Origin: Isoetes taiwanensis
Taxonomy: Eukaryota; Streptophyta; Lycopodiopsida; Isoetales; Isoetaceae
Assembly (NCBI GenBank): GCA_021234155.1
Contig: JAJEKV010000026.1
Span: forward strand, 17,446,304 to 17,510,303
DNA length: 64,000 nucleotides
Direction of reading: 5' to 3'
Part shown: positions 5,487 to 47,775 of the stretch, in pieces
How the letters are laid out: every line of letters starts with the position of its first letter
How positions within the stretch are numbered: the stretch's first letter is position 1
Made by a program: the position numbers and the translations under genes
Notes under the pieces: model-generated
What the model saw: only the letters and a program-made list of their open reading frames with translations
Databases searched by the model: none
What the model was told of the DNA's origin: nothing

Positions 5487-5520
5487 AGGGATTTTAGTTA
5501 TTGGTGATGGAAATAATAGG

Positions 5521-7170: not shown

Positions 7171-7172
7171 GG

Positions 7173-8751: not shown

Positions 8752-8775
8752 TATTCATCGGGACGATGAATAAAT

Positions 8776-8787
8776 AAAAGGGGGGAG
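8776..8787 (+). promoter_or_regulatory. Polypurine tract of gypsy element 1
   Basis: AAAAGGGGGGAGG-type purine run directly before the 3' LTR; in this family it primes plus-strand DNA synthesis. Confidence 0.7.
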
Positions 8788-19590: not shown

Positions 19591-20010
19591 AGGGCATTTT
19601 TCATAAAAATGCATAGAATATTGTGGTTATTGGAAAATACATAATATTAGGATATTGTGCTTATTAAAAAATATATAGTAATACATGGAGAGGGCATTTT
19701 TCATAAAAAAATGCATAGAATATTGTGCTTGTTGGAAAATACATAATATAGGATATTGTGCTTATTGAAAAATATATAGTAATATATGGAGAGGGCATTT
19801 TTCATAAAAAAAAATGCATAGAATATTGTGGTTGTTGGAAAATACATAATATAGGATATTGTGCTTATTGAAAAATATATAGTAATATATATGGAGAGGG
19901 CATTTTTCATAAAAAAAATGCATAGAATATTGTGGTTATTGGAAAATACATAATATAGGATATTGTGCTTATTGAAAAATATATAGTACATAGTGTCCCA
20001 TTTGGAAAAT
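19591..20010 (+). repeat. Tandem repeat of about 100 bp, four copies
   Basis: AGGGCATTTTTCATAAAAA starts at 19591, 19691, 19792 and 19897 (period 100, 101, 105). Each copy holds GAATATTGTG.TT.TTGGAAAATACATAATA and GATATTGTGCTTATT. A weaker fifth copy may follow to 20110. AT-rich and non-coding. Confidence 0.85.
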
Positions 20011-20154
20011 CTATATTTGAAATAAGCTATGGGCAGGGTCTATTTTTTCATAAGATATGTATACATAATAAATGCATAAGATATGGTGTGCATTAGAAAA
20101 TACATAGAAAATACCATTTTCGGTCCAGCTTAGTCATGAACCTCGAATCAGTGT

Positions 20155-24635: not shown

Positions 24636-24897
24636 CGCATTGTGAAGTAGTTTTGAATCATTTAATTCAAGCATTTTCATTATTTTAAGCGTAAGAATGC
24701 CCATGTTTCTTCTCTCCATCCCCTGCATTGGATAGATAATATAGTTCATCCGACTTTGTTCCAGTCACATAGAACTGATAGCTTAGGTTGCATTATGCAA
24801 ATTGCTTAAAAGTTTAAAGATGTCAGTCTAGCAGGCCTTATCCAGTGTTATTCAAATTCGGCGCGATCTAGATTTATTATTCATCACAAAGATTAAA

Positions 24898-26553
24898 TGT
24901 GACGTTCTGGGGAATATACGCTATAAACACGTGATATTCCCTCGGTCCTCGTCACCATACAAGTCTACCTAGGTAGCCTTGTATGCCTTAGAAAGTGGCA
25001 AGGGGTGCACATCTAAGTTAATTACTTAACTTAGATAACCTTAGGATAAGGCCCATTTCCACATGGCCTCATCCTATTGGGCAACCGCCACACGGCCTCA
25101 GCCTAGTGGTGCCACGTGGCATCCCACGTGGACCCACACCTATATTAGCTCTAACCCTAACCCTAGACCCTTTTTTTCCTGACCTAGCACCTGAACTCTC
25201 ATCTACGTGCCCGAAACCCCGTTTCGAGCGTCGTTCGTCATAGCCTAGCCTGGAGCAGCAGCCCCTGGAAGGTGTGTATGATCGTTGAGGGAGCAAGTCT
25301 TCGAACCACGTCAAGGAGCATGGAGACGCCAGGGATGGGAGGAAGCGCTTCTGGAGGAGGTAGGTTGAGTAGAGTTCATGTTAGTTCATCTGGAAGTTAG
25401 CACTCCAGATGGGTTAGTATTTCGTATCTAGTATAGAGCCACCCTAGAACCTTTGTTGAACATCTTGAACCCTAATCAAGGAACCCTAACTATTAGTTAG
25501 ATATGTATGATTAGGTTAAGATGTTCATATGATATTGATCATGATGGGATGTATGTGATGTTTGGTTGATCATGTTGCTCCTCTTGTATTGGGAAGGGGG
25601 GTAGAGACCTAGGGCCATATGTAGTATGCTCCTAGCGTAGATCCCTTAGTTCCTATTAGTTGCGGCCCAGTGCATAGGAACCCACCGGGCTATGGAGGCT
25701 ATGGAGTGACTCAAAGACTACACAACGGGCTAGAGGCAAGATGGAGGGAGGATCCCGGGCCGAGCCGGGGCTACTTGGGATCCCACGGTGGGCTAGGCTT
25801 ATGGTCTGGCCACTGCGGGTGGGTAGAGCATGGGTCCGACACCTCCCCGGGCGAAGGTGTGCCTCGCTTCTCAAGAGTTGCAAGTGTCGGCTTGGCTCTT
25901 GTTTTGGGGGTTCGGTCGGTTACTTAATCATGTGTCGCCACGATTCTCTAGCCGCCGTGGAGCCTCTAGACCCCGGGGAAGGGGAGATGCAACCCCTCCT
26001 ACCTCAACGGACCGTGGAGATGCAACCCCGAGTAGTCCCCGATGGGTGATACCATGGGATTGCGTGATCCCAGGAAGGTTAGAGTCATGCCGAGCCCCGA
26101 TTGAGCCCATCCGCAAAGTATGCAATGGAGGGGCGGATGGAGTGGTCAACCCTAGCCATTGTCTTATGCCCCGCCATTGTTATGACTCTGGTCCGCTTCT
26201 ATCTTGAGGCTCATCCCCGTCACGACTTCCTTATGTGTCCGAGCCACTGCAGGAAGCTCACGCTTTTTTATGGCATGCCATCATGTTCTTTGCATCTATG
26301 GATATGTTGATGGACTATTCCCTTCGGGGTAGTATGAGGTATTGCTATTTGCTAGTTCTGACGATGTTGTGCTTCCGCTGTGATAGGAGCCCATAGGGGA
26401 AGGGCGCGCAAGACACCTTTTAGGTCCCCTTCCCAGACCGCGATCATCTCTGCAAGCGGGATAGATTTAAGGGCCTGTGGTGGTTGTTGAGCCGACGGGG
26501 AATTTCTCGCCGAAAGTGTACTCACGGGCGTCGATATTTAGTGGAGCATCACA
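24898..26553 (+). repeat. 5' LTR of the chromovirus
   Basis: 1,656 bases, TG..CA ends, collinear with 44217-45537 plus 56449-56768. Contains CTCTAACCCTAACCCTAGACCC (two telomere-like units) near 25148 and a GC-rich second half. Confidence 0.93.
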
Positions 26554-26554: not shown

Positions 26555-26566
26555 TGGTATCAGAGC
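26555..26566 (+). promoter_or_regulatory. Primer binding site, initiator tRNA-Met
   Basis: TGGTATCAGAGC, complementary to the 3' end of plant initiator tRNA-Met, one base after the 5' LTR. It is the standard start of minus-strand DNA synthesis in plant LTR elements. Confidence 0.93.
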
Positions 26567-27134
26567 GATGTTCTTGGTTGACCAGGAACTAGCACTAACC
26601 ATAACCATGAAAGTAGTCTAACAAACCTATAGGGGTGTGAAATAAAAATTTCCACCATTGAACCTTGAAAATGGGAGGAAAATTTTTCTCCTAAGTAGTG
26701 GGTCCGAATTAGGTTAAGTATTAGACGAAGAAATGAATGAGTCAAATTCATCTTCTAGTAAAATTGAGTAAAAATTATGCACCTGCATCAAATTTCACCT
26801 AAAATGGGTCAAAGAACTATGCCAACTGAGACCCGAAAGAAAAAATGGCTTAAATCCATAATTAATACTTCAAACTATTAGGAAATTTGAAATTCTAAAG
26901 GTATAATACGAATTTAATAAGTATGTATATTAGAAATTAAATATATGCTAATAATAAGGGTACTTTGGTGTAATTAATAAGGGGGGCTAATAAGTAGGCC
27001 TATTAATGGTAGGAGAATATTCCCAGGGACCCTCCTCTTTAAATAGTCTTGCCACCTCATTTTCCCTCCAAACGTTTCCTCCACCTTATCTCTCTTGATC
27101 AGCCTTACGTCACCCGTTTTCTAGACCGTTAAGT

Positions 27135-28265
27135 ATGGCACGACGGGCGCACAACCCAGAAGGGCGGGCGGCGACCCACGCCTCGATGGCGACTTAGCGC
27201 CAGGTCGCCATGTCAAGAAGATCCCTGAGCACCTTCGACCTAAGCCGGGGGAAGGGGCCTTTTCTCCCAAAGAAGAGCGATGAAACCTTCCATGACGCTG
27301 AGGAGGAGGCGCCTAGCAGCAGCGGTAGCTCTTCGTCGGCGGGCACCCAGAGAACCGGCGAGTCCCGTCACTTTGGGCCTCCGTCGGACACCGAGGTGGA
27401 AGGTGGAAGAACAGTGGAGAAGCAGCCCCAAAGACTAAACTCAAGAGGCGGTTCTTCGCACCAAAAGAAAAAGGGCAAGGAGAAGGTTGGTGAGTGGGCC
27501 GTAAGAAACGGCAAAGAAGAAAGAAGAGGTTGAGGGAGCTGCTCGAGAAGGAGCGGGCGAACGAAGAGAAGAAACGACAGCCTCGCGGATCTGCCGCTGA
27601 TTGAAGAACCTCAGGCCCGGGGAGCAAATGAGGAGGAAGAGGAAGGAGGAGGCGGGGCAACGAGGAGCAGTGAGGAGGAAGCCGAAGGAGGAAGAGGAAG
27701 ACGCTGGGGAGCCATCGACTTCAACGCGACGACTCACCCTACCCGGCGGCCCAAGCCACCGAAGGCGGTAGTCAAGAAGCGTGGTGGGCGAAAGCAGCAT
27801 TCAAGGCCCGAGGATCGCGGAATTCGCCGCTTGAAGGCATACTAGAGTACCTTCGCCGCTGACGCAGGTACAACGATTGGTATTGCGCGTAACGGAGCCG
27901 CTATCGCCAAGGGCGCCGTCAAGAAGGACCAGCCGAAGCCACCACCTCCACGTCCGTGAAGCCAAGAAGGTCCACCATGGGCCTCCACTCGCCGCGACGT
28001 CTTCCGGGAGATTAGGCACTTCCAGCAGTGCACTAATCTCCTGATCAGGAAGGCTCCCTTCGAGCGCCTGATGCGAAGTTATGCAGTGAGTTCGCCACCG
28101 ACTATAGAGTGACATCTCTCGACGACACGGGTCCCGGGCAGTGGCAGCCGGCTTAAGAGCTGACCCAGCCTTTTGAGGAGGGCAACTTATGCCAATTCAC
28201 GCCAAGAGGGTGACCGTAATGCCCAAGGACCTCTACTTGGCGGAGAATCCGCAAGGAGTACCCCT
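27135..28265 (+). pseudogene. Histone H3-fold (CENH3-like) pseudogene in the chromovirus
   Basis: From ATG 27135 a frame runs to 27533 with one TAG at 27195; it encodes a Ser/Glu/Lys-rich tail. After frameshifts the H3 core appears in pieces: REIRHFQQCTNLLIRKAP then FERLMRS (28004-28080; alpha-N and alpha-1), EFATDYRVTS (about 28088-28117; alpha-1/loop), FEEGN (28171-28185) and MPIHAKRVTVMPKDLYLA (about 28189-28242; loop 2 and alpha-3). All are in H3 order. Canonical H3 has REIRKYQ and TELLI; HF and TNLLI at these places, with a long tail, are closer to plant centromeric H3. A TATA-like CTTTAAATAG lies 85-95 bases upstream. Not functional as it stands. It is a host gene piece, not a normal part of chromoviruses. 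Confidence 0.72.
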
Positions 28266-28437
28266 AGAACCTCCTAATTTTGTACCAGAACTAAAATTTT
28301 GGTATAATATAATTCTTGTCTTGAAAAATTGATGTTAAAAGGTAGTTAGAGAAGTCAAATTGTACTAAAATTTTTTGTATCTAACTTGTAATAGTTTAGT
28401 TATCTTACCCCTAATTAGAAAAATTTTTCTTCTGAGC

Positions 28438-28711: not shown

Positions 28712-28888
28712 TGGCCCTTTTTGGCCCAATTTGACCAATTTTGACCCAGCAACCTGCCATGTAGTGTTTCTTGCTTTGTTTTGCTTAGAATTGCACTTCA
28801 TGGTAGCTCATTTGGACATCCATAGCCTTTGAACAAAGTCCGTCCACATCAAGAAACCTTGTGCACGGAACCCGAGGCACCCCTAGCC

Positions 28889-28896
28889 TATAAAAA
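28889..28896 (+). promoter_or_regulatory. TATA box
   Basis: TATAAAAA in a fitting setting (CCTATAAAAAGGGCCC), about 130 bases before the extra open frame. A promoter inside the internal region of an LTR element is unusual. Confidence 0.45.
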
Positions 28897-29019
28897 GGGC
28901 CCTCATTTGTCATTTTCCCACCATCAAAATTGCTCTCAGCCCTTTTGGCGATTTTCTAGCTTCTTGCTTGTCCTCATCAGCCATTTTTCATACTCTTTTC
29001 TGCTCAATGGTGCCCTCAC

Positions 29020-30987
29020 ACTTTATCAGATGGCGCCAATCACATCCGTGATTTTCCTGCCGACCAAGCTTTCCATGTCTTCGACCACCTCTTTGATCTC
29101 CACGCCACATTGACTAGGACTCCCTATTACACCGACATCATTTGCCAATATGACCAGCAGATACTACCCTGGGAAGTTAGCTTGCCACCTAGGGGAGGGA
29201 AATGGGTTTCTTTAGACTCTCTGACCCAAGCCATAGGTGGGGGAGCTAAGGCCAAGAATAAGGTGTGGGATAGAACCAGAAGCATGCCAGACTACATGAC
29301 CTGTAAGCATCATAGGCACAGATACCTCTCAAACCAAGCCGCCTTAGCTTTGTTCATGCAAAGTACAAGGCGGTCCAACCAAACTGTGGGAGCCGCCAAT
29401 TCAGCCCTTAGATCTAGCACCTCTCGACACCCAAAGGGAGCAGATCAGCATCCACGAAATCGAGTCCACGGAGTACGAGTACTACGGTTCCACCTCGGCA
29501 ACACCCATGCTGCAGATTGAGCAAGACTACGAGCAACAAGGGGAGGAGAACCCAAGTTGGGAAATGAGCGAAGCAAGCAAGGATGGAGAGGCAAATAGCC
29601 AGGCAGGAAGGCACACTAAGGCGAGATTTCGAACCACCACTTGGCATCACAGCCCTGTCACTAGTGATCATCGACGACGAGGAGTACATCTTGGCTAACG
29701 ACATCCTCAACCTCCCCCATTGCCAAGAAGAAGGCCTCAGAATCGACGAGCTCCTAGGCTTAATTGCACAAGAGCAGGGCAGTGACTTCATCGACTACTC
29801 CTACCAGGAATTTCCAAGGGAGTTATCGGAGTGACACTCATACGCCGGGCAGACAATGTCAGATATAGAAGCCTATCAGCAGATAAGGGAGATCTATCGA
29901 CAACAAGAACCTGTCATCCCAGAGGAAGAGTTCCAGCAGATACAAAGCAGATTGTATAAGCCAGGAAGGGGTCCAAGCTCTAGCCGACCAGTCCGTTCCA
30001 GGAGTTCGCGTGAGGCACATGCCAACATCAACTTGGAGAACGCTACCACAATGTGGAGGGACCATGAAGACCTTGTAGCAATAGACATCTATGGGGAAGC
30101 GGTGGGAGTAAGAGGCACGGTGGTCCAACATCACGGGTAAAGGCAAGCGCTTCGACACTATCTTCCGGCTCTTAGCCAAGGGGCGGATGATAGTATTCCA
30201 CAGGGAGTTTAGCCCAAGAGGAGAAGAGTCATTTGCCCCTCATAGCCCTCTCTGGCTTTGGGCAGCACGCCAGACTAGACCACGCATCGGACCATGTCAT
30301 CCTTTTCAAGAGGTCAGTAGCTCTTCACTGCCTCGACTTCGCCAGGGGCCACCTCAGGGATGCACATTTGTCAATTAGTGGCAAAGAACGGCACCGAACT
30401 CCCAAAGACACCCGGATGGCTAGAGCACTTGAAGGAGGATCAGCCGCAAGGATCTTGCGAGAATAATCGGCAAGAAAGGGTTACATCTCAAGAAGCTTCT
30501 TCAAGTCCATGAAGCGGCATCGATGACGGAAGAATTTGCCTTGTCCTCAAGTAAATTGTATTGAATAATCTCTTTTTGATATTATCATGTATTTCATAAA
30601 ATGTACTTCTATATATTAATGACTTATTATGATCTTGACTTGTAAGTGGAATTTTCACGTGACCTTACAAGTCTCAGATTAATTGTAAACGGATATAATT
30701 GATGTGTAAACCAAATAACAAGTATTGATGATCAATCCTTGCAGCAAGGAACACCGGCTCAGGTTCCCAAGGCCAGGGCCGACAGCATCAGTGGGTATCC
30801 AGGAACCTATTCGGACGTGATCAGGATGACAACAATGAGGAAATGACGCCGGAAGCAATCAACGCAAGGCTCGTCCAGATGAGGAATCAGATGCATCAGC
30901 TGATCCATTGGGCCACCCCATTGATGAATGCCCAAGAATATGCACCTGCACCACCTACACCTCCACCACTACCTCAACCAAGGCATT
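29020..30987 (+). pseudogene. Extra ORF upstream of gag, with an intron
   Basis: Coding sequence of unknown function with some frameshifts: about 29020-29520 (QYDQQILPWEVSLPP, then basic HHRHRY), 29583-29834 (acidic), 29856-30140, and 30360-30550. The last joins 30745 across a 194-base intron, 30551-30744 (GTAAAT..CCTTGCAG), without frame loss: ASMTEEFALSS continues into RNTGSGSQGQGRQHQWV and on to a Pro-rich end (stop at 30987). I do not recognise the domain. Some plant Ty3/gypsy groups (Tat/Ogre) do carry an ORF before gag; chromoviruses usually do not. It could also be a captured host gene. Confidence 0.5.
30551..30744 (+). other. Intron in the extra ORF
   Basis: Donor CTCAA/GTAAAT, AT-rich body, acceptor AATCCTTGCAG. 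The frames on both sides are open and join in phase, while the intron itself has stops. An intron in the genomic copy of an element that moves through RNA needs explaining. Confidence 0.6.
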
Positions 30988-31199
30988 GAGGAAGGTCCAC
31001 GCAGAGAGGGCAAGAGAACCGTGGAAATGTCAAGGACGGGGAAGAGGAAAAGGAGAAACAGTATGACTCCAACACCACCTAGCTCCAGGTTCATCGACAC
31101 TTCGCACACCCAAGACAGTTCTAGCTCAGAAAGTGAGTCTGACACTTCACAGGTAAGAGCCAGGACAAGGAAGGCGATGACTATCGAAGAAGGTTGACA

Positions 31200-31977
31200 A
31201 GTGCTATGAGCAATGTGTGGAAGACTAGGAAGTTGGGTCGGTTCTCGTGAAAGGACAAGTCGCATGGAGGCGTAAGCCCGGCTTTGATTTAAATGGAGGA
31301 ATTTGGCAACTCTTATAGCATGAAGGACAAGGATATAAAGAAAGTTGCTACAGCAAACTTGATAGGAGCAGCTAGAATCTGGTGGAAAGGCTAACAAGCT
31401 CAAAAGGAACAGTTGCAGATTTAAGACCTTCAGCAAAGCTTTCCGCAAGCACTATGTGCCAAGATCGCACACTAGCAGGCAGATCCAGCAGTTCTATAGG
31501 TTGAACCAGGGTACATTGTCAGTAGCAAAGTATACAGAGGAATTTATGCGGCTCAGGCTCCATGTTCCCGGAGTATCAGAAAGACAAGCGGTTGATACCT
31601 ACATTGAAGGGTTGAACAGCAATATCAAAAGGCTAGTCCGAGCAATCAACCCAAAGTCAGTGGCAGAAGCCGAGGATAAAGCCATAAGTTTGGAAGAAGC
31701 ACCATCAACCCCAGCAGAGAAGCAGTCGGCCTTCAAGGGTAAAGCTTCGTGGCGCATTACGAGTAAGCAATCAGCCAGCCTACGCCATCGAGGAGGCCAG
31801 CCGCGAGGAAGAGCTCGTGGTAAGACCTTTGGGGACCGTAGTTTGAGAATGCATCGTGGGGATGTGCTAAAGCGTATTCTAGATACCGACGAAAGAGAAG
31901 AGACAAGAGTGTATCGAGAAGAAGCTATGTTTCAGGTGCTTCCGGCCGGGGCAATCAACACATGATTGCCCATTCGT
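31200..31977 (+). pseudogene. gag (capsid and zinc knuckle) of the chromovirus
   Basis: The capsid domain begins in a broken frame near 31300 (NLIGAARIWW) and continues in the frame 31456-31965 (QFYRLNQGTLSVAKYTEEF, LRLHVPGVSER). Near 31937-31978 a single zinc knuckle reads CFRCFRPGQSTHDC; the expected His is Gln, which should weaken zinc binding. Several frameshifts make it non-functional. Confidence 0.82.
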
Positions 31978-31978
31978 C

Positions 31979-32473
31979 ATGCAGGCAGGTTTGGCAGAGC
32001 TTATGGATTGGGATTCACCAACAGAAGCGGATGAGGACGACGACCAGCATGAGGCCCAGGACTTCATAGATGGTGAGTGCCACATATGTGCAAACATTGA
32101 GTCAGGTGATATTGAAAATCAGTCATCAGTCATTCCGGCTGATGGGATCATAGATAGCAACCCATATGTAGTCCTCATAGACACAGGTAGTTCTCATAAC
32201 TTCGCCTCTCCCAGGCTAGCTGCCCTAATGAAGAATAAGGTATTGAAGTCTAAGCCAAGGCCAGTTGCTATGGCAAACGGCGCCATTCGGCACACTAAGG
32301 GGAGGAGGATCACGTTCGACATAGACCTTAGTGGAAGTAAGTGGCCGATGGGAGCAGAGGTCATGGAAATTGGAAGGTATGACCTTATAGTGGGCATGGA
32401 ATTCTTGAAGCCAGCCAAAGCCATGATTGATTGTGACCGCAACGAAGTCGCCATGACGGCACCAAATTCATAG
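31979..32473 (+). pseudogene. Aspartic protease of the chromovirus
   Basis: Retropepsin-like domain with the intact active site VLIDTGSSHNF near 32172-32204 and RYDLIVGMEFL at 32377-32409. The frame ends early at 32473; pol continues at 32623 in another frame. Processes the polyprotein in active relatives. Confidence 0.88.
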
Positions 32474-32622
32474 TGAAAGGTAAGAAGGCAGCTCCTTCTA
32501 TGCAGTGTATTTCCTCGAAGCACCTAAGGAAAAGTATAGAAAGAAATAAGGTGGATTGCATTTTGAGGTTAGAGGCAATTGAGCCCAATAAGTAGGATGG
32601 AAGCGACCAAAAGGGGAACCAG

Positions 32623-32753
32623 TTGCCCAAGCCAGTAGCAAGGCTCATCTCAGAATTTAAGGATGTATTCCCGGATGAAATCCGGCAGCTACCACCTTAT
32701 AGGGGTGTAGAATGTGAGATCACATTAGCTCCAGATGCTAAGCCTACCAGCAA
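32623..32753 (+). pseudogene. Start of pol, cut off by a transposon
   Basis: Linker before reverse transcriptase (FKDVFPDEIRQLPPYRGVECE), ending at 32753 where the CACAAGG element begins. The next pol codons are at 40594. Taking out the insert and one CAA copy rejoins the frame exactly. Confidence 0.88.
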
Positions 32754-35485
32754 CACAAGGCACCCAAAATTAAAACACTACATGGTTTTTCCCATGGTTG
32801 TGACTAGAAAACCATTCTACAAAACTAATACATGTTTGTGGGTTGATATCATTAAAAACCATTTGAGGCTAAACTAATGGGTTCTTTTGTAAGGTTTGTT
32901 AGGGTGGTGTTATGGTATGGTAATTGCTAATGGCTTCCTTTGTAGAGTTTGTGAAAGTGGTATAGCATGTTGGTAAATTTGTGTGGTATATTATAGTGTT
33001 TTAAGGGTATGGTTAGTCCCTATGGTATAACACGATGGTGTGGATGTGGTTTAATATGCTGCTCTATTCATGTGATTCTATAGTGTGGTTGGTTATTGTG
33101 GTGAACTAGCATGGCTAATTGTCATGGTAAATGCATATGGTTCGCAATGTGTTAGATTCAAATTACTATTACTAATAGTAATAGTTACTTCAAATGCGCA
33201 TGGTTTGGTTATGCCTTATCTTCATGGTTATCATTTATAAACCAATGATGATAACCGGTAACACTTTGTTGTTTAAACCATTTCAACTTTATTTAACTAA
33301 AATCTATTAAGGAGTAATGTTTTGTTGTTTAAAGCATTTCAAGAGTATTTAACGAACTATTAGAGAATGTGGATGGTTTCTTTTACGTATTCTTGTACTT
33401 ATTATGTCCATGTCAATATGTATGCTTTCAGGAAGCAAGGGGATTTGAACCCCAACCATTTCCAGAACTCATAAACAATGATAAATCTATTTTAAACAAT
33501 GATAAATCTATTTTCAGAAATACTTACAAAACAAATTCAGATAAAAACATCTTACAGAAAGACCAACCTTGCACTTGTAAGTACATAAATATCAAAACAA
33601 ATTCAGATAGAAACATCTTACAGAAAGAAAGTATTGACTTTGCACTTGTATTTCAGTACATAAATAACAGAAACATAATGCAGCTTAAACCAATCACCTC
33701 TAACAAGGTTGCATATTAAACGAGAGCAAATCATCTAAACGGGAGCAGAAGGAATATTCCCCAAAGATTCCCTTTTTTCCCCCAAAAAGGGGCTAAATTG
33801 AGGTAAAATACAAAAAAATGACATAAAACTGTATTTTGCCCCCCCAAAAATAGCCCATTTCTTTGTGCGAAGAGGGAATTGACTGTGTCAAAGTGACACT
33901 TTTTCAATCAACTAGAATTTTTTCCAAGTATGTTTTTAGAGAGAACTCATGTTTTAAGAGCCATAACTTTTATTCAAAAATAGAAGTGAAGTAGTAACTG
34001 AAATTGTAGTATATTCAAAAATTGATGATAGAATCTTGATATTCACATGCAAAATTTACAGTATTTTTTAAGTACTCAGTTTTGTGCAAAGGTGTGAGAA
34101 GCGATGAGAGAAGGATCGAGCACAAAAAACAACCATTAGAGTTCTTTGATTTAAAAGGCCAATAAATATCGATTTCGCATGTGCCTTAGAAATTATCAAA
34201 TTTCTCTTGTTTAAATAGTGGAGATAGTAGCGAAAAAGAATATTGTGTTCGAACACGTGAAACCTTTAATGTATTCTGGAATACACTTGCTATTCCGGAA
34301 TAGCGAAACAGAAAAAAAATATTAAAACTTTTTTGTATTCTGGAATACACTTCTTATTCTAGAATAGAGTAAGGAAAAAACGAAGCAAGATCAACTAGGT
34401 TTTTCCGCATTTTTAGTTTATTTTAATGACCTTGCGATTTATTTATTTTTTTTTTTGGGGATCTGAGATTGTGGTTCAAAAAAAGAAAAGGGTTTGTTTG
34501 GGTTGTTTTGTATGAAGCAGGGATACGGGATTTAGGCTCCAAATAATAGTGGGAAATGTATTCTGGAATACACTTTGTATTCCAGAATACATTTTAGTCT
34601 TCAACGGGAGAGGGGGCGAATTTTTTTTTCTGCGTCCTTTGGCGCCATCGAGCGATCTACTTCGGCTCTACCTCGGCTCGGCATCTTTGGGCTACTTGGT
34701 CCGGCATGGTGATCCAAACGGTTTTGGTATGGCACAAGTTATTAGATTTAGGGATTCATGTTATTCGGGTTATTTAGGGTCTTCCAGCACCATCAGGTTT
34801 GTTATTTAGGGTCTTCTTGACTATCCGGTCTTGGCAGACTATCCAGGTCATCAAGTTTGTCATTTAGGGTCTTCAACTATCTCGATCTTTAGCAACTCGG
34901 CAGACTATCAGACATGGTTCAAAGCAACTATTTAGGGTCTTGAAAGAACTATCAGGACATGGTTCAAGAACTATTTAGGGCATGTTTGCATCTCTCAAGG
35001 CAGGTGGCTTTTTGCCTTTGCCCAATTTAGAACTGGCTTTTTTTGCTTCATGCAATCTGAGGAATGCTTCTATGGGAATCTTTCTATACTGGGGTTTTGG
35101 ATGCAAGGTTTTATCCCGACTTTGTGCAGGTGGTTTTGGATGCACGAAAACATGTGCAGTGCAATTCTTGTTTGACATTTGCTCCTAATACTTATCGTCC
35201 TTGGAGTTATATCTCAGATTGTGAAGGTAAATTAATCCATAACAATTGGTTACTAAATGATAAGAGTTACTAACTTGATTCTGATTGGAAACTGCAGATC
35301 CCTACTGGCTGACATAAATTTAAAAATGAGACCCGAGCTTGCAGAAATGGTCACTGTCTGTCACTGAGATTGTAAGTTTTTTGAATTATTTTATTAAGTT
35401 ATCTATGTCGATCAGCTCTTGGCCTAACTATCTTCAATAATACAGGAAATTTAGTTACTTCTTCATTTGTAAATACCGAGAAGGT

Positions 35486-35650
35486 GCTAGTCTGAAGGTG
35501 GATAAATGCAAATAAATGCACGTGGATTTGCTAGTCTGAAGATGGATAAATGCACTGACTTGCTAGTCTCAAGGCGGATAATGTTGTGGATTTGCTAGTC
35601 TGAAGGTGGATAAATGCACGAATCTGCTAGTCTTAGGTGGATAAATGCAC
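35486..35650 (+). repeat. 32-bp minisatellite, five units
   Basis: GCTAGTCT begins at 35486, 35530, 35562, 35594 and 35626 (spacing 44, 32, 32, 32), most followed by a GGATAAATGCAC block. Confidence 0.85.
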
Positions 35651-36020
35651 AGGCAGAAGGAAGGCAGAAGGAATGTTAGAAGATGCATTTGTTGGTCTTT
35701 GTAACCATGTTGAAGTTAACATGCCGATACCAACATCATTTTAAAGTTTTGTGAAAGTGCAAAACTTCCACTCATTTTGCTTAATATCATCTGACTTGAA
35801 AATGAAAATATTATATTGGAGTTGCTTACACCCGTGTCGTTGGCAAGGATGGCCTGTATATCACCAGAGATAAAATTCTAAACAATAACATACAAGACAA
35901 CAATACAAGTCCATCAAATTGAAGTACAATATTAGCCATACGCATTGTTGTTGCTAGTTGTTGCTAGTTGAAGAACAGAAAAAGAGGACATGAAGCAAGC
36001 TTTAGCACACATAGATAAAC

Positions 36021-36128
36021 GTGTCTTTAATTGTTTCTACAAGAAAAAACATAGATACACCAAAGGTTATGTAGGTGTCTTTAATTGTTTCTACAAGAAA
36101 AAACATAGATACGCCAAAGGTTATGATC
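36021..36128 (+). repeat. 54-bp tandem duplication, in frame
   Basis: Copies 36021-36074 and 36075-36128 differ at a few bases; 54 is a multiple of three, so the small frame 35990-36178 repeats VFNCFYKKKHRY. Whether it is translated is unknown. Confidence 0.8.
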
Positions 36129-36423
36129 TACAGAATGTGACTAAGCTTGAAACAGGTTATTATTGTACTTCAATTTGATGGATTGAAGGCAAGGATGGCC
36201 TAGTGCCCTGGCAAGTAGCATTAGACCAGGCCATTTATATAGGACACATTATGAGCATTCTGGTGATCCTGCTAGACCAGAGAGGCTATATGGAGTATGT
36301 TTCCCTAGGATTTGAGGTGGTTTATTGCCTACACAAGGGTTTGCTCATAAGGAAATCAATCCAAAGTGGCCAGTGAGGCTTTCAGAACCGAAATATGGCA
36401 TTGGTGATCCGAAATATGGCTTC

Positions 36424-36606
36424 TTGTTTGTATTCTGGAATAGCATAAAGAGTGCACGTTTGTATTCCGGAATACAATAAGAGTGCACGTCTGTATTCTG
36501 GAATAGCATAGGAGTGCATGCTTGTATTCCGGAATACAATAAGAGTGCAAGGTTCTATTTCCGAATAACATAGGAGTGCGCAATATTCTATTCTGGAATA
36601 ATATAA
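36424..36606 (+). repeat. 31-bp minisatellite with a palindrome in each unit
   Basis: Palindromes of the form TATTCYGGAATA start at 36431, 36463, 36494, 36525, 36556 (one imperfect) and 36589, joined by GCATA.GAGTGCA spacers. Confidence 0.9.
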
Positions 36607-38324
36607 GTATTCACGGGCAACCTCTCTAGACAGATTTGGCATGTTCTAGTGATTTAATTCTTCATTACACCACAAAACTTCATGATTACTTCTTTTTCAC
36701 ACTTTACACTTTCAGGTTAATGTTCGCAATTTAACCTGTGATCACACCTTGCACTTTCTGTTTAATATTCGTAATTTCACCTATGGTCTATTATAAATTA
36801 AACCTTTTTTTGTGTATGTTCACAATAACTCGGTGGAAAAAAATAAAAATGTAGTTGAAATAGCATATACTAAATCATAATCACCATAATGTTTTGAACT
36901 TAAGCCCTAAAATTGACTTTTTAAATGGTTGATATCTTGACGCTATCGTAAAGAAAAAAAAATTGGGGCCAAAATAGCACACATTAAATTGTAATCGCCA
37001 TGTGTTTTTGGACTTAACCCACAAAATGGCCATTTCAAATAATTAATCTGTTTTTTAGAAGGGAATCTTCAAACGGGAGTGCTGCAACACTCCCGTTTAG
37101 TATGCAATCTTGTTCTCTACTGTAAGGTTACATAATTCTAACCAACTACATATCTTCCCCTGATTATGTCCTTGCTAGACGAAGCCAATAAACTGATGCA
37201 AGATACAAACGGCTGAAACAGGGCATCTGCATGTTATTTCCCTTGTTCACAAAAGGTAGATCCCAGTATATGCAGTAGATCTCAGTGTATCCATATTACT
37301 TTTATGGCATATTCACATTTAGCATCGACACATGGCAGAATTCAGAGAGCAGAGCAGCTGCATCACAGTAGGCTCTAACAACATCCTTAGACAGTAACTG
37401 GCATGCACAGTCTGTTGATGCCATCTGTGCGCTCACCAGCTTATGCAACTTCGTTGATCTGAATTCCTAAAGAATTCTAACTTTCACAACAATAACGTTG
37501 ATGTTGCTTACCAACAAAGTGTCGATGCCATCTACTAGAATGATTTTCCTTAGACACTCAAACACATGCTACAAAAGACTGTCCTACATAACAGTGATGA
37601 GTTTATAGAATCTCAGCTGCAACAACACACCTTACATTCTAGACAACGAGCTCCATCATGCTTCAAGTTTGTGCAAGCCTCTCGCTACAACACTCAAGTA
37701 CAAACTGTGTTGAGATAACCGTGATGCAATAAACTATGAAAAGATAACTTCTTACTTTAAGGTCTATAAAGGCTCCTGTAAATTGTACCAAGATCTGATA
37801 TATATAAAAGCATATAAACTCACATACCTTGTAGCAGAAATATTGCAAAACTATTTTTCTCAAGCTATGTTGGAGGTATACTTCTCAAGCTATGTTGGAT
37901 CTCCTTTAGTTTTTACAGCTTTAAAATACAGAAAAAAACCCTTAACAATACCTGATTGTTTTCGATGGTTGAGTTTTAGGAAATGAGTGTTTTAATGGCA
38001 CTTTTTTACCGCAAGCTGCCAAGCATCATTCGTAGTCTGGACCAAGATCTCCTGCAAAGGGAGTCTGCTGCTTAAAAACATTAGCTACATGAATGGCATA
38101 GCAAACACATCTAGAGTTGGAAGGTACTTGCCATAACCAGCCTGAGCTTCCATTTCCCAGAGGTGTAGTTTCACAGGAAAGTGTTAAATTTCCTTCGTAT
38201 GCCTCTAAATTTTCTTCTTATGCCTCTGTAGTATAAAACAGTCAGGTCAAGCTGCAGCTCTAAACAACAAGAAAACTTAAAACGAGAACAGATTATGAAA
38301 CAGCTAGGCTAAGAAACGGATAGC

Positions 38325-38716
38325 CTAGGATTTAGTTTTGTATTTGGACTCATCAATGGGTATACCCTCTTCTTCAACACGCTCCTGGCCTGATTTTTCC
38401 ATGGTAGAAAGCCCACCCTTATGGCCCATTTCCTGGTAACCTTCAGTGCCCATCTGCTCACGACGGGTCTGGCCGCCCTTGCTACGGCCTACAAAAGAAT
38501 AAGAAACACAACGCACATTATAAATCTGGCATGAGGAAGACATTAAACGAAACAAGAGAAAACGAAAAAAACCTTCAGCAAGGCGTTCCTGAGCGTCGAG
38601 GGTTTTTCCGCCGGTTCCATCAGGGACAACGGTCTGGCCTTCCCTGGCGGTCTGGTCTGGTCTCTGGCTAATGAATTACTGCCGCTCCCGCTCTCTATAA
38701 TGATTCCTCTCTCCAT
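38325..38716 (-). pseudogene. Em-type LEA group 1 (LEA_5) gene, broken, inside transposon
   Basis: Exon 2 (38488-38325) encodes [20 protein letters not shown] followed by MGHKGGLST and ends [10 protein letters not shown]: the Em hydrophilic repeat and C-terminus. Exon 1 (3' end at 38573) encodes [20 protein letters not shown], the other Em hallmark. The intron (38489-38572, 84 bases, GTTTTT..TTTTGTAG) splits a Gly codon in phase, as in a real gene. Upstream, the exon 1 frame meets a stop at 38676-38678 without an ATG; the nearest fitting ATG (38716) is in another frame, so the N-terminus is broken. Em proteins protect seeds and spores from drying. The intron shows capture from genomic DNA, not mRNA. 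Confidence 0.85.
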
Positions 38717-40070
38717 AATGAAGCAAGGAAAACAAAGGATGGATAAATTGTTTTAAGCTTCAGCCTAGGTACATACCTAGGTACATGGTAACTTTTTTCA
38801 TTACCTCAGATATGAGTCCCGTTAACATATTACTCTTAAGGGAATTCTCATGCTTATTACCCCTAAGGATTCCCTTTCCAAGTTATATTTTGCCCCCAAC
38901 CCTATTTGGGCAGTAATCAACCATCAATATGTGTAGCAACTTCTCCTGTTGTTGCACAGGTGTGGAAAAGAGTTGCATGGATCATTGCAGCTCTTGTAGA
39001 GATAAGATCAAAGGTGCATATTGATGGAGAGCAGTAGAGATGGATGGGTCAATTTTGGAGATCAAGCTTCGTTGAACATATCATAATTCATATTTGGTGA
39101 ACAAGAATTTAAGCAGTGCTAGAAAAGCATCTATGGCTGAAGAAACAGACATGATATTTGTAGGCATGGCAAAACGGTGGATCAGACATGCAATGGCCCC
39201 ACCATGGGTAGATTAGCACAGACGATGCAGATTCGTCATACAATAACCATATTGTTATTGAACAATACAACTTGAACCATATTCTTGTTGAATTTGATTG
39301 GTCCTTTGAAGCATTAAGACTTGTGGAACTTTTAAGTTTGAATCTAAAGTGGGAAAATTTGATTATTGATTAAGGGAGGAATTCAAAAGTCGAAACCCCA
39401 CAGTCATCGATTGTAGCACCTAGCTATCCTTTGGGCAGAGAACAGGGGGCAATAATGCAGCAGGTTTAAATCCCACGTGTTCTCAAATCAAAAGGTTTTT
39501 TAAGTTGTAGTTTTATTGTTTTTTTTTCATTATTATCTAGGGACCAAGCCCGCATGATTGTTCATACGCTATGATTGTTTACAGTACATGGTGGGAGGTA
39601 TGAGTTCCCAATGTACAGGATGGACTAATATGCATGCATGGGAAAGCGATTTGAGTATATTTAGTGCCCATTTGTAATTTTTCCATGGTGGAGGTGTAAG
39701 TTTGGTGTAAGTCTCTCCATATGTGTGATTCTTAGCTGTGTTTTATACTATTTTTGTTATATCATGGTAACCAACCTTCTTGATTACATTTCCCCAAGGT
39801 TACATGGTCTGGGGTTCAAACCCTAATCTTAATTGCACACTTGGTGGTTGTACGAGAACCCTCAGTATGTGGTCAAGCATTTGACACAAATAATGAAAAA
39901 CCACTAAGAATGGAGGATCGTTATAGCATGATATTTTACTTCTCAATATATACTTGGCTATGGGATAAACCTTAGTCAATATAGAAATGTGAATGCAAAA
40001 CCGCACCACTATCCGATTGGTCTCCGTGGACGATAAAAAACATTCAATTCAATTCTATGCTGGTTTTGCA
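38717..40070. other. Right interior of the CACAAGG element
   Basis: May include upstream DNA of the captured Em gene (CCTAGGTACATACCTAGGTACATGG near 38764-38788 is a short repeat). tRNA B-box-like words occur at 39463-39475 and 39813-39826. No gene recognised. Confidence 0.45.
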
Positions 40071-40593
40071 CTATGGATAGCCACATCTTTTTAAATGATA
40101 TTTATGAACGATCACCATGACAATTAGCTCAGTATTGAAACTATGCTATAAACCACAACTATTTTATAACATAAACTGTAATAATAGAAAACTAGCATGA
40201 ATATCCACCATGGCATTTAAATTGGTTAAAAAACCACACCATAAAGTACTTTAACTTTATGCCAATAGAAAACCAACATAAACAACCCTTACCATATTTA
40301 AAGTGGTGTTGAAAAACAATGCTACAAACCAATATCGAATTAATAACCATGGTACATTAGAAAACCAACATGAATGACCATTGTTGATGTTAGAAACCAT
40401 AAAATAAACTAATTTTGGTTTTGAAAAGCCACGCCATAACAAAAAATCAACATGGTTAACCATGTACTAGTTATAAAAACCACTATGTTATGTGGTTTTT
40501 ATTAAGAGTGAAATTTTTATTATAAAAAACCATATCTATAGTGGTTTGTCAGTGGTTTATTATAGTGGTTAAACTTTTGGGTGCCTTGTGCAA

Positions 40594-42928
40594 GGCGCCT
40601 TACAGAATGAGCACCCCAGAATTGATAGAGCTCAAGAAGCAGCTCCAGGAATTGCTTGAGCTTGGGTTTATTAGAGCAAGTGTGTCTCCTTTTGGAGCAC
40701 CTATACTCTTTGTGAAGAAGAAAGATGGGAGCTTAAGAATGTGCATAGACTATCGCCAGCTCAACAAGCAGACGATAAAGAATAAGTATGCATTGCCAAG
40801 GGCAGATGATTTAATGGACCAGCTCCAAGGAGCAAGGGTATTCTCAAAAATTGACTTAAGGTCAGGGTACCATCAGATAAGAATAAAGGAAGAGGATATC
40901 CATAAGACCGCCTTTAGGACGCGGTATGGTCACTTTGAGTTCACAGTAATACCCTTTGGGTTGTCGAACACTCCAGCAACTTTTATGCGCCTCATGAACG
41001 ACGTCTTCAGAGATTTTCTAGATGAGTTTGTCATTGTCTTCTTCGACGACATTCTAGTCTACAACAAGTCCATTGAAGATCATGATCAGCATTTGAGAAG
41101 GGTGTTGGAAAAGTTAAGACGGCATCGCTTGTATGGCAAGCTCTCCAAATGCCACTTTGCTACCGAAAGAGTGGAGTACTTGAGCCATGTAATATCGGCG
41201 GAAGGGATTTCCACCGACCCCGCAAAGATTGAAGCAGTAGTTGATTGGCCAGCTCCAAGGAATGTAGCAGAGGTAAGAAGCTTTCTCGGATTGGCGGGAT
41301 ATTACAGAAAGTTCGTGAAGGACTTTGCTAAGTGGGCGTCCCCTTTGTCGGACCTCACTAAGAGTGTTAAGGTGAAAGATTGGAGAACGCATTGGTTAGA
41401 GAAAGTCCAAGCTTCCTTTGAGAAGCTCAAGGAGGCCTTAACAACAGCTCCAGTGCTCGTCCTTCCAGATCCGAGTAAAGATAAGCTTGTGGCTACGGAT
41501 GCAAGCAAGATAGCAATAGGGGCAGTCTTGATGCAAGAAGAAAGGGTAGTCGCCTACGACTCGAAGAAGATGAACGACGCCGAGCAACGCTACCCAACCC
41601 ATGATCAGGAGCTCCTAGCCATTGTCAGGGCATTAAGGATTTGGAGGCATTATTTGCTGGGAAGGAAGTTTCAGTTAGATATTGATCACCAAAGCCTCCA
41701 GTATCTTTTCACCCAACCACTCCTCAACCTAAGGCAAAGGAGGTGGATGGAATTCCTTGAGGAATACGATTTTGATATAGTATATAAGCCCGGTAAGCTT
41801 AATGTCGTGGCAGATGCTCTCTCCAGGAGACCATTTGAGACAAGAACGCATTGTAATGCGATTTCCACTCTTTCGAGTGAATTTGGTAAGAAGATTGAGG
41901 AGACCCTGCCATTAGATGAAGATTTCAAGGAAGCATGGGAAAGCCTTTCTAGGGAGGCTAGAACAGATAAGGAACGGGAGGCCTTCAAGCATTATAAGAA
42001 GGAAGGGAACCTGTTGTATCATAAACATAAGTTGTGTGTGCCCGAATCATCAGGAGTAAGGAAGCTAATTCTTCATGACACACACAACAGCCCAATAGCA
42101 GGGCATGCAGGGTTTATGAAGACCTACTTCAAGATTCGAAGTAGTTACTTCTGGCCGGGAATGAAGAAGCAGATAGCAAGATATATTCGGGAATGCCAGT
42201 TGTGTCAGCAGACGAAAGCGGAACAACTTCGAATTCCAGGTGCCTTAGAGCCATTGGGAGTGCAAAATGCTAAGTGGGAGGTCATAAGTATGGATTTTAT
42301 TACCGGACTCCCTAGAACTCTTCGAGGCAAGGATGCATTGATGGTTGTCGTAGACAAGTTATCTAAGATGGCACATTTTGTGCCTTGCAGAACTACGGAC
42401 ACCGCATTAGATATTGCCAAGCTATTTGTAAAGGAGATTTTTAGACTCCATGGCATGCCTCGGGAGATAATTTCAGATAGGGATTCCAAATTTATGAGTG
42501 CCTTTTGGCAGGACCTCTTTAGCACCATTCAGACGAAGCTCTCCATGAGCACGGCATATCATCCCCAAACAGATGGTCAGATGGAGAGGACGAATCGAAT
42601 CATCGAAGATATGCTTAGAAGCTTTGTGTGGAATAAGCAGTCCAAGTGGGATGAGTACATCCACTTGGTGGAGTTCGCCTACAATAGTGCCAAGCAGGAG
42701 TCTTCTCAGATGTCTCCTTTCATGGTAAATTACGGGTACCAGTGCCTAACCCCGGATACTTGGCACAATCCTGTGTCAAAGGTGGAAGTATCCCAGCAGA
42801 TGCTAGGAGATATGCAGCAACTGGTGGAAGAAGTAAGGGGTTACCTCCTAGCAGCAAGAAGTCGGCAGAAGAGTGTAGCCGACAGGCACAGGACCGTAAG
42901 AGAGTTCAAGGTAGGCGATAGCGTGTAG
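40594..42928 (+). pseudogene. RT, RNase H and integrase of the chromovirus
   Basis: One open frame of nearly 780 codons; pol proper starts at 40594 behind the insert (the frame upstream of it is transposon sequence). Reverse transcriptase: [23 protein letters not shown] and the catalytic FFDD at about 41039-41050. RNase [22 protein letters not shown] and IDHQSLQYL. Integrase: zinc-binding His residues (LHDTH, AGHAGF) and CQLC, then MDFITGL, SDRDSKF (Asp codon 42476-42478) and MERTNR (Glu codon 42584-42586), a DX35E spacing. All catalytic residues are present. The frame stops at a TAG (42926-42928) in place of a Trp codon, so the copy is nearly but not fully intact. Confidence 0.95.
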
Positions 42929-43380
42929 TTGAAGATCAAGGTTAAGCAAGCCAAGCTTCGGATTGGGAGTTGCAAGAAGCTTGCCCCCAGGTGGGCTGGT
43001 CCGTTCAAGATTTTGGAGAGAGTGGGCTCCCAAGCCTACAAGTTGGATCTTCCGGCCCATCGCAAGGTTCACAAGGTTTTCCACGTAAGTTTATTAAAAA
43101 GGCACAATCCTAACCCTGATGAGGTCTTGGATACTCCAACTTTGTTGGAAATGACGGAAGAGCAAGTTGAAATCGTGCCTGAATTACTTCTTGATAAGTC
43201 ATTCAAGAAGACTAGGAGGTCTCAGTTCCTCCAATATTTGGTTAAGTGGAAGCACTTGCCCGTGGAAGACGCAACTTGGGTATTGAAGTAGGATTTGGAG
43301 AAGCAATACCCAGATTTTATGAAGGAATTCGATGGGCGAGTCATCTCCGATTTGGTCGACCCCGACTCGCCAGGAGGTTA
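42929..43380 (+). pseudogene. Integrase C-terminus and chromodomain of the chromovirus
   Basis: Continues the pol frame after the TAG: RWAGPFKILERVGSQAY and HKVFHVSLLKRH are the usual integrase tail, and QYLVKWKHLPVEDATW (about 43226-43280) is a chromodomain core. A second TAG at 43289-43291 replaces the following Glu codon; the frame then runs to 43380. In chromoviruses this domain steers integration to chosen chromatin. Confidence 0.88.
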
Positions 43381-44204: not shown

Positions 44205-44216
44205 AAGGGGGGAGAA
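44205..44216 (+). promoter_or_regulatory. Polypurine tract of the chromovirus
   Basis: AAGGGGGGAGAA immediately before the TGTGACG start of the 3' LTR. Confidence 0.9.
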
Positions 44217-47060
44217 TGTGACGTTCCGTGGGAATATACGCTATAAATAACGTGATATTCCCGAACCGTCACCATACAAGTCTACCTAGGTAGCCTTGTA
44301 TGCCTTAGAAAGTGGCAGGGGTGCACATCTAAGTTAATTACTTAACTTAGATAACCTTAGGATAAGGCCCATTTCCACATGGCCTCATCCTATTGGGCAA
44401 CCGCCACACGGCCTCAGCCTAGTGGTGCCACGTGGCATCCCACGTGGACCCACACCTATATTAGCTCTAACCCTAACCCTAGACCCTTTTTTTTCCCGAC
44501 CCCTTTTGAACTCTCATCTACGTGTCTCAAAACCCCGTTCGAGGCGTGGCCGTTCGTCATAGCCTAGCCTGGAGCAGCAGCCCCTGGAAGGTGTGTATGA
44601 TCGTTGAGGGAGCAAGTCTTCGAACCACGTCAAGGAGCATGGAGACGCCAAGGATGGGAGGAAGCGCTTCTGGAGGAGGTAGGTTGAGTAGAGTTCATGT
44701 TAGTTCATCTGGGAGTTAGCACTCCAGATGGGTTAGTATTTCGTGTCTAGTATAGAGCCACCCTAGAACCTTTGTTGAACATCTTGAACCCTAATCAAAG
44801 AACCCTAACTATTAGTTAGATATGTATGATTAGGTTAAGATGTTCATATGATTGATCATGATGGGATGTATGTGATGTTTGGTTGATCATGTTGCTCCTC
44901 TTGTATTGGGAAGGGGGGTAGAGACCTAGGGCCATATGTAGTATGCTCCTAGCGTAGATCCCTTAGTTCCTATTAGTTGCGGCCTGTGCATAGGAACCCA
45001 CCGGGCTATGGAGGCTATGGAGTGACTCAGCACTACACAACGGGGCTAGAGGCAAGATGGAGGGAGGATCCTTGCCGAGCGGGGGCTACAGGGGATCCCA
45101 CAGTGGGCTAGGCTTATGGTCGGTCACTTCGTGTGGGCCGAGCATGGGTCCGACACCTCCTGGGGCGAAGGTGTCGCCCTGCCTCTCAAGAGTTGCAAGT
45201 GTCAGCTTGGCTCTTGTTTTGGGCGGTTCAGTCGGTTACGAATCGTGTGTCGCCACGATTCTCTAGCCCCCCGTGGAGCCTCTAGACCCCGGGAAGGGGA
45301 GATGCAACCCCTCCTACCTCAACGGACCAGGGAGATGCAACCTGGAGTAGTCCCGATGGGTGATACCATGGGATTGCGTATCCGGAAGGTTAGAGTCATG
45401 CCAGAGCCTGATTGAGCCCATCTGCAAAGTATGCACAGGAGGGGCGGATGGAGTGGTCAACCCTAGCCATTGTCTTATGCCAGCCCCGCCATTGTTATGA
45501 CTCCGTCTGCTCTATCTTGAGGCCTATCCTGTCAGTCCACTACAAGAGAATGACAGCTAAACGTCAGAAAAATCGTCAGAGGGTCTAAAATAGTTTGTCA
45601 AATGCGTATTTGACTATTAATATGACGCTTAATCTGACTAACAAACTGACGTTTAGAGTTGACGAAAATCCTGACTAATAAACTGACTAATAAGCATCTG
45701 ACGAATTACCTGACATTTAGACTAACGTTTAGCTTGACTAATTAGTTGTCTAATAATCTGACTAATGAGGTGACGAGTTCTGACTTGTAGCCTGACTATC
45801 CGTCTGTCCAAATGTTTGACTAAATATCTGACTAATTAGATGACTTACAAGTTGACTATTACACTGATTAATTTTGTGACTATTATGCTGACTATCTTCC
45901 TATATTCGTCAGAATAATGGTCATGCATAATATCTATTGTAGTTGCTGCTATTCCTTAGTTCCTTTATTAATATAACTAGAAAAAGTGCCCAGCGTTGCT
46001 GGGCTTTTCGTCGGGATTAAATTCAAAAGTTAGGATACATTTGAGAATATCTAGTTGGGTATATATGATCGTTCACTCTAAATTGAAGCTTCAAATTGTC
46101 CTTTTAAAATGCTAATTTATTGAGCTTAAAGTTTGAAACAACTAATGAAATTTTGGAATGTTCATGTAGCAATCATCATGCATTTATCATATGGTTGAAT
46201 CTACATCTCGACTTCGCGTGTTGTCTTGTACATCTATCTTACCCATTTAGCTCATCTTACCCATTTAGCTCTCCTTGGCACTCTTTCAAGGTAACTTCCA
46301 CATTTGGAGTCTAGAGGGTATCATTCATTGCATAATGTATATTTTTAATCGCGACCAATGAAAGTCAATAATTGTCTTATAGATTGGCATCCTTGTATTT
46401 ATGGGTGCATCATCTATTAGATGTTCACACAAATGGAATTTGTAAAAGTTAATTCTTTGAAAAGATGCTTATCGGTGGTGAGTCATTGTTGTAAGTGTTG
46501 TTTTGGATGATGTGGTTGTTGACGCCTTGTATATGCTCTTTAATAACCACATCTTCCTATAGGGAGGTTAATGCTTTCGGTTGAATTGTTACAAATAAAA
46601 AAAAAAATTTGTTGCAAAACCAGGGAATGTTTTTCAAAACCACATGTCCCTCGAAGGGGATTTTTGAAGGTTAATGGTTTTCTATTAGTTGTTACTATCA
46701 TCAGGGTGTTTACTGGTTGTGTCTCATTTCGTTCATTATCGTCAATGTTGTAACTATCAACGCCATGTACAAGTTCCTCAAGAATTACATCATTTTGCAA
46801 ATGGGATTCGTAGAGACTAATGCACGTAAAGATGAGTTCTTATTGAGGTATAATTTGGATGGCGAGTAATTGGGTGATTTAGAAGTCATTGTTGGCTAGG
46901 GGTTCATGCACTATTGCCATGTACATTTTCAGCATGCTGGTTGTAAAACACATTTAGTAGTAAGTTTATGTACACATTTTTTAATGATCGAGTAATTGTT
47001 CTTTTATTTTGTGATAAAACAAATAAATAAATATGATAAGGAATTTCATAATTCGCACAG

Positions 47061-47107
47061 CTTCGATTTGTTAATGATATAAGGCTTCGATTTGTTAATG
47101 CTATAAG
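47061..47107 (+). repeat. 24-bp tandem duplication
   Basis: CTTCGATTTGTTAATG.TATAAGG occurs twice in a row. Confidence 0.8.
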
Positions 47108-47717: not shown

Positions 47718-47775
47718 CATGAAGTTGTAATAGGAAGCATAAGAAGCATGAAGTTGTAACAGGAAGCATAAGAAG
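47718..47775 (+). repeat. 29-bp tandem duplication
   Basis: Two copies starting CATGAAGTTGTAA and ending GGAAGCATAAGAAG, 47718-47746 and 47747-47775, one mismatch. Confidence 0.85.

Follow-up and report, generated by a model that had tools for sequence, protein, structure and literature searches.

Results

A histone H3 gene within a chromovirus

The window, by which we mean the whole stretch of 64,000 nucleotides of the Isoetes taiwanensis genome that was analyzed, contains a copy of a Ty3/gypsy chromovirus (copy A) that spans positions 24898–56768 and is bordered on each side by the target-site duplication (TSD) TTAAA. The features of this class found in copy A were long terminal repeats (LTRs) with a TSD, the order reverse transcriptase (RT), RNase H, and integrase, and a chromodomain at the integrase C-terminus. 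Between the primer binding site (PBS) and gag there are two GC-rich blocks, the first of which ends in a histone H3 core. The features of copy A are the following:

24893–24897, no strand: 5' TSD TTAAA; the same five bases stand at 56769–56773, past the far LTR
24898–26553, plus strand: 5' LTR (TGTGACG...ATCACA), from blastn against the parts of the 3' LTR
26555–26566, plus strand: PBS TGGTATCAGAGC, an exact match, one base past the end of the 5' LTR
27135–28270, plus strand: decayed H3 gene (block 1) with ATG, long charged tail, and H3 core, GC-rich between AT-rich flanks
27990–28103, plus strand: H3 core piece 1 (alpha-N, alpha-1); phmmer against PDB, E 1e-6, H3
28079–28156, plus strand: H3 core piece 2 (loop 1, start of alpha-2) in another frame; read by eye, in H3 order, and in frame in the sister copy L039
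28189–28262, plus strand: H3 core piece 3 (loop 2, alpha-3) in a third frame; phmmer against PDB, E 0.0012, H3
28887–28899, plus strand: TATA-like box upstream of block 2, a possible internal promoter, from the sequence
28960–30470, plus strand: block 2, a second accessory ORF region, GC-rich, decayed, and without known domain
30770–31965, plus strand: gag, frame-broken; PF03732, E 2.7e-13 on 31366–31962, start judged by eye
31883–32470, plus strand: aspartic protease; PF08284, E 7.9e-10
40526–42925, plus strand: RT, RNase H, and integrase in one open frame; PF00078 (5.7e-37), PF17917 (5.5e-34), PF17921 (5.6e-20), PF00665 (1.3e-9)
42929–43288, plus strand: integrase C-terminus with chromodomain; PF24626 (3.3e-20), PF00385 Chromo (3.4e-7 at 42929–43285)
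44217–45537, plus strand: 3' LTR, first part, interrupted by a CACTA-like element; blastn against the 5' LTR
56446–56768, plus strand: 3' LTR, last part, followed by the TSD TTAAA; blastn against the 5' LTR

In the blastn alignments of the two LTRs, positions 24896–26216 matched 44215–45529 at 93%, and 26223–26553 matched 56448–56768 at 86%. Similar LTR pieces occur in related loci. A CACTA-like DNA transposon of 10.9 kb (45538–56445; terminal CACTACAAGAGAATGA, 3-bp TSD GTC) interrupts the 3' LTR. In copy A the RT region begins at 32596–32874 and is separated there from the main RT frame by about 7.6 kb of other DNA. This DNA occupies positions 32880–40520 and includes 31-bp tandem repeats at 36450–36573.

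Other elements and open frames were detected in the window. An older chromovirus, copy B, lies on the minus strand (57080–63657; gag at 61713), and its pol is 68% identical to that of copy A at the DNA level; a region of it is perhaps collinear with block 2, weakly so, by one low-accuracy nhmmer alignment that tblastx did not back, and its upstream end falls outside the window. A separate Ty3-type element (3171–8748) has gag, a zinc knuckle, and open pol frames, with direct repeats of 136 bases at 2293 and 8942 (88%). The window also has four tandem copies of a 103-base unit (19604–20014), a NIF-type phosphatase ORF (9780–10616; PF03031, E 1.5e-12), and an open frame without Pfam match (591–1877).

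The preliminary description of this DNA, made from the sequence alone, had reported a broken H3 core between the primer site and gag. Both the core and its position hold, with the PBS at 26555 and gag beginning at about 30770; what that description had left unreported is the second ORF block, at 28960–30470, ahead of gag. The three H3-core peptides are present in the DNA in H3 order, within 27990–28265 and in three different frames of the plus strand. Taken singly against PDB sequences, the 38-aa first piece gave an E value of 1e-6 and the 47-aa last piece one of 0.0012, and the matches listed for both were H3 or H3-like chains. The profile search that had been proposed as a check matched the Pfam Histone family (PF00125) with pieces 1 and 3 at E 0.0017 and 0.013, below Pfam's cut-off, and the middle piece of 25 aa was without a Pfam match on its own. 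Joined with X, the pieces matched H3 at E 3e-18, and the joined core retrieved 29 matches from 5.8 billion proteins, all with a Pfam Histone domain (best E 6e-13). In the sister copy L039, a 316-base stretch encodes the whole H3 core in a single open frame (phmmer against PDB, E 2.7e-29). By the E values of the pieces, the joined core, and this open core, the H3 match is far beyond chance. The window gene is broken by two frame changes inside the core and by in-frame stops in the tail, and this copy is dead for H3 protein.

The H3 gene is common to the element family

The genome (1,658,258,908 bases in 1110 contigs) was searched with window positions 27100–28300 (1201 bases), and 40 rows besides the window were scored out of 1607 first-look candidates. 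Two of the 40 are halves of a single place, and the window's own match brings the total to 41 rows. Identity was 72–87%, and 36 of the 40 covered at least 1155 of the 1201 bases of the H3 block. The preliminary description had named family members lacking the segment, with a clean insertion border in this copy only, as evidence against a histone-carrying element; we found the segment to be shared across the family, and related element types have the same arrangement. Since 40 other genomic rows share the block, there is no clean border in the window copy alone, and an insertion into this copy alone is excluded. A host pseudogene lying beside an element is likewise excluded, as in related loci, too, the block is located between the PBS and gag.

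When the genome was searched for the Pfam Histone domain, 150 rows were scored out of 8704 loose candidates. The first 15 scored 164–165 bits, and the eight that were fetched (L001–L008) were canonical H3. By our count, 55 of the remaining 135 rows had open frames of at least 300 aa. We fetched 28 of these 135, eight for their long frames (L009–L016) and the first 20 others by rank (L017–L036). All 28 loci had the H3 core; 27 had a new N-terminal domain upstream of it (not L025), 26 had block 2 (not L010 and L025), and 25 had gag (not L011, L016, and L029). The exact PBS TGGTATCAGAGC was present upstream of the H3 gene in 18 of the 28, behind an LTR end ..GTCACA. The gene is found within the termini of a mobile element and multiplied with it.

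One relative, L010, is cleanly inserted, with the TSD CAATC, both LTRs, and an open fusion ORF. Its LTRs align over 1403 columns with 36 mismatches and 53 gaps, a divergence of about 2.7% in substitutions, and its gag-pol is open in two long frames, one of 883 aa and one of at least 468 aa, with one stop between them. The whole fusion ORF is open in nine loci, six of type I (L009, L010, L011, L015, L016, and L034) and three of type II (L012–L014); L034 is the only one of the nine that comes from the 20 loci taken by rank and not for frame length. In L014 the ORF is open, yet part of the N-terminal domain reads out of frame. L038 represents a third element type. Many copies of the family are decayed.

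Block 2 was followed in the same loci. When six block 2 queries were compared with the window, one matched the region 28960–30470 (L015, 24% identity, E 7e-4). Of six type I loci, five have TATAAAA or TATAAAG at a common aligned position upstream of block 2, the sixth being L010, which is without block 2; this position suggests that the accessory genes may have their own transcripts. In L016 the LTR and leader occur twice (1390–3624 and 7173–9424 in the orientation of the H3 gene; 95.6%), on either side of the H3 gene and block 2, and no gag was found between the repeated units, an arrangement that would fit a tandem insertion or a shortened element.

The fusion protein

The nine open ORFs encode the new N-terminal domain, a linker, and a complete H3 fold. 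The order in the fusion is N-terminal domain, Q/E-rich linker, basic stretch, remnant of the H3 tail, and H3 fold. The N-terminal domain is about 215 aa long, with a boundary that we set ourselves, and is 28%–38% identical between types I and II; a common stretch resembles FVKHFxEGxRIPY and is absent from L014. Neither this domain nor block 2 gave a Pfam match above the cut-off, and no similarity was detected between the two. The domain was not found in the lineage of the window copy, which has diverged much further, to 60% identity with host H3.

The basic stretch reads ..YKTRLQ..AKK..RRE.. or ..YKDQL..AKAAGDNRRD.., and the tail remnant AKHPSTGGK or ARHPxTAGK, in which residues like H3 S10–K14 are visible. 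Tail positions (S10, K9, K14, H39) are given in H3 numbering. A proline replaces K9 in 27 of the 28 loci, the other, L026, being out of frame there. In the preferred alignment, types I and II have no lysine at the place of K9 and keep K14; in two type II loci, L012 and L019, the proline is followed by a lysine, and the K9 register is less sure there. From K14 to H39 the open ORFs have 12–14 residues where H3 has 24, and types I and II thus lack the K27 segment.

Inside the fold, ten residues with roles in the nucleosome (R63, R69, R72, R83, C110, H113, R116, K122, D123, and L126) are unchanged in all 28 loci. Compared with host H3, type I carries L60P, K64R, S87F, G102E, E105S, T107A, and R134F in 23 or 24 of 24 copies. 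The changes of type I inside the fold also include, besides L60P, F104L in most copies.

Selection on the fusion gene

Among the 18 within-type pairs from the nine open ORFs, dN/dS of the core was 0.00–0.16, a range in which constraint on terminal branches is inflated because all 28 loci were found through PF00125 rank and copies with a good core are over-represented. Core dS in these pairs was 0.06–1.44 and exceeded 0.3 in 16 of the 18. For the N-terminal domain dN/dS within types was 0.07–0.23 (15 pairs; three saturated), and for the linker, which is less constrained, 0.06–0.47 (14 pairs; four saturated). Across type I, the core had a median dN/dS of 0.04 and a maximum of 0.15 (230 of 253 pairs, those with dS of 0.1–2; the rest were dropped). 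One comparison of gag-protease, between L010 and L015, gave 0.06 at a dS of 1.1, three other loci having been dropped for stops.

Synonymous sites were saturated between types I and II in all but one comparison, at a dN of 0.12–0.15 for the core and 0.67–0.78 for the N-terminal domain. They were also saturated against the host H3 copies L001 and L004, with nonsynonymous differences of 0.09–0.14 (27 loci; L021 was left out for its length). In most pairs dS was far above the LTR divergence of the single dated element (2.7%), so most of the change arose while the lineages were active. The low dN/dS of the core within types, together with synonymous saturation against host H3, points to an old capture kept by selection. 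In the tree, types I and II were joined with 94/81 support, and the fork opened once L038 and L039 were added; a single capture of H3 is likely. As far as sequence comparison goes, the H3 gene demonstrably moves with the element, is old, and has evolved under constraint at the protein level. That the element bears a constrained H3 gene of its own we regard as nearly certain.

The H3 gene is very unlikely to be a CENH3

The preliminary description had likened the core to centromeric H3, a reading in which the gene would be a CENH3 borne by a centromere-aimed chromovirus. The motifs REIRHF and TNLLI do resemble plant CENH3, a chromodomain is present in the element, and in a first tree, built from the broken window pieces with two CENH3 rows, the window was drawn next to Arabidopsis CENH3. 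This grouping carried a flag for long-branch artefact, and it disappeared when the complete core of L039 took the place of the pieces: with the same two rows, L039 stood in an unresolved fork with host H3 and the element types, not with CENH3. The centromeric histones compared were Arabidopsis CENH3 and human CENP-A; L039 was 43% and 45% identical to these, respectively, and 60% identical to host canonical H3. Loop 1 of the element cores compared has the length of canonical H3, without the insertion of the CENP-A and CENH3 sequences, and the 60 PDB matches listed by phmmer for L039 were H3 chains. The replacement HF, which had been taken as a centromeric sign, also occurs in long-tailed H3 proteins of ENA origin with a canonical loop 1 (H at position 53 in 10 of 10, F at 54 in 7 of 10), so HF alone is no mark of CENH3. 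On loop length and identity we rejected the CENH3 identity, which now appears extremely improbable.

Long-tailed H3 proteins in other sequence collections

A protein search with a three-row alignment returned 5955 proteins past E 1e-6, of 7982 scored. Among the best 120 of the 5955, 119 came from ENA contigs and were 233–409 aa long. We read 11 of these long-tailed H3 proteins; nine begin with MARTKQTARK, and they have a middle part of their own and the H3 core at the end. The set as a whole (P0030–P0031 and P0033–P0149) is very large, and most of those read share this start and a private middle part. The ten nucleosomal residues were kept in 10 ENA proteins except for R63 (8 of 10) and R83 (9 of 10). 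One further protein, P0032, is a Nymphaea thermarum 'histone H3-2' of 444 aa that consists of canonical H3 copies repeated in a row and is possibly a gene-model fusion.

The ENA protein P0044 had 106 matches in the host genome, including the host H3 genes, mostly to the core alone. Three extended upstream of the core at 52%–57%, and in the one fetched, L038, the upstream part was weak and gapped. Homology of the ENA N-terminal part with the N-terminal domain of the host genome was unsupported (hhalign P 0.17), and the predicted structure of P0044, with a mean pLDDT of 37, was set aside. Scans of IMG/VR with pol and with P0030 found no relatives. We make no claim that the ENA genes lie in retroelements.

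Possible function of the element H3

Transposon silencing works through histone H3 marks. The explanation that we favor, and hold to be somewhat probable, is that the window contains a decayed copy of a standing H3 gene of a Ty3-type chromovirus family, whose product acts in the chromatin of the element. The fusion probably works as a nucleosomal H3 for the element, judging from the residues that it retains. The protein would be made while the element is active, would pair with host H4, and would enter nucleosomes, off which the outer N-terminal domain would stand. Nucleosomes containing type I or II proteins could not take the silencing methyl marks at K9 and K27, given a proline without lysine at the K9 place and a missing K27 segment. 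The most likely use would be to keep the chromatin of the element open, and a further possible one would be the aiming of the chromodomain integrase.

Anti-silencing as the reason for carrying an H3 is a tentative proposal, which we consider possible with rather less than even confidence. It does not fit all of the proteins, because the ENA proteins read keep K9 at the N-terminus, and in the lineages without K9 the loss may reflect simple tolerance of tail loss. A wider reading is more speculative: plant chromoviruses would possess a nucleosomal H3 that evolved with them, is joined to a domain specific to the element, and has lost the silencing sites K9 and K27, and they would place it on element copies to escape heterochromatin; the several diverged lineages, and perhaps a second organism held in ENA, would make this an old and widespread strategy. 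We think it doubtful that all of this holds.

Other roles for the fusion can be set against nucleosomal service to the element. It could serve in the particle or at integration, where it would compact or ferry the DNA copy or mark landing sites for the chromodomain integrase. The gene lies near gag yet separate from it (gag in 25 of 28 loci), a basic linker and an H3 fold can bind DNA, and the integrase of copy A has a chromodomain. No fusion with gag was seen, however, and residues contacting H3 and H4 are kept as in a nucleosomal H3, beyond what DNA compaction by itself needs; we consider this role unlikely. The replaced K9, the lost K27 segment (types I and II), and the bulky N-terminal fusion would also suit a poison subunit that takes the place of host H3 and blocks marking or assembly, which would ease element expression generally. 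The host would suffer, however, from a toxic histone encoded in many copies, and nothing here separates this idea from the nucleosomal model; we rate it as quite improbable.

The H3 gene could instead have been picked up once and merely carried along, and many copies are indeed broken, the window copy included. Unless sampling bias accounts for all of the constraint, such a passenger is very hard to reconcile with a core dN/dS of at most 0.16 in pairs that, for 16 of 18, have a core dS above 0.3, and with two types whose synonymous sites are saturated at a core dN of just 0.12–0.15, and we give it very little credence.

Under the nucleosomal reading that we prefer, an element bringing its own selected H3 would carry the silencing arms race onto the nucleosome, and through its copy number it could alter chromatin across the whole genome. 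If the protein is useful to the element, it would give jumping genes a new means of influencing host chromosomes. The element H3 would also provide a naturally occurring histone that lacks K9 and K27 and could be studied as such.

Comparison with known systems

The element H3 resembles canonical plant H3 in its complete fold, its loop lengths, and its residues for contact with DNA and between H3 molecules; it differs in being fused to a new domain, in its cut-down tail, and in its location on a mobile element. With CENH3 and CENP-A it shares some surface residues (HF, T-N-L-L), whereas the loop-1 insertion is absent and identity is low.

Copy A agrees with plant Ty3/gypsy chromoviruses in LTRs, PBS, gag, protease, RT, RNase H, integrase, and chromodomain, and differs from them by two extra ORFs between the PBS and gag, the first of which is the H3 fusion. 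A search of the open-access literature found no LTR retrotransposon carrying H3, and the word 'histone' does not occur in the main text of the paper on the I. taiwanensis assembly (PMC8566536). LTR retrotransposons of bdelloid rotifers have likewise captured additional ORFs, among which the accessible part of the source names no histone (PMC5408684).

The nearest precedent that we found is in a fungus. A hAT transposon of Pyrenophora tritici-repentis carries an H3-like gene, H3L, of which there are 26 very similar genes that the authors of the study think may have drifted (PMC3538342). Both systems consist of a mobile element with an H3 gene whose altered N-terminal tail fits neither canonical H3 nor CenH3, and the hAT element, like the elements with block 2, has a further ORF of unknown function (PMC3538342). 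H3L resides in a fungal DNA transposon with terminal inverted repeats and a hAT domain (PMC3538342), whereas the gene described here belongs to a plant LTR retroelement, occurs in several lineages that have diverged, is fused at its N-terminus, and is clearly constrained.
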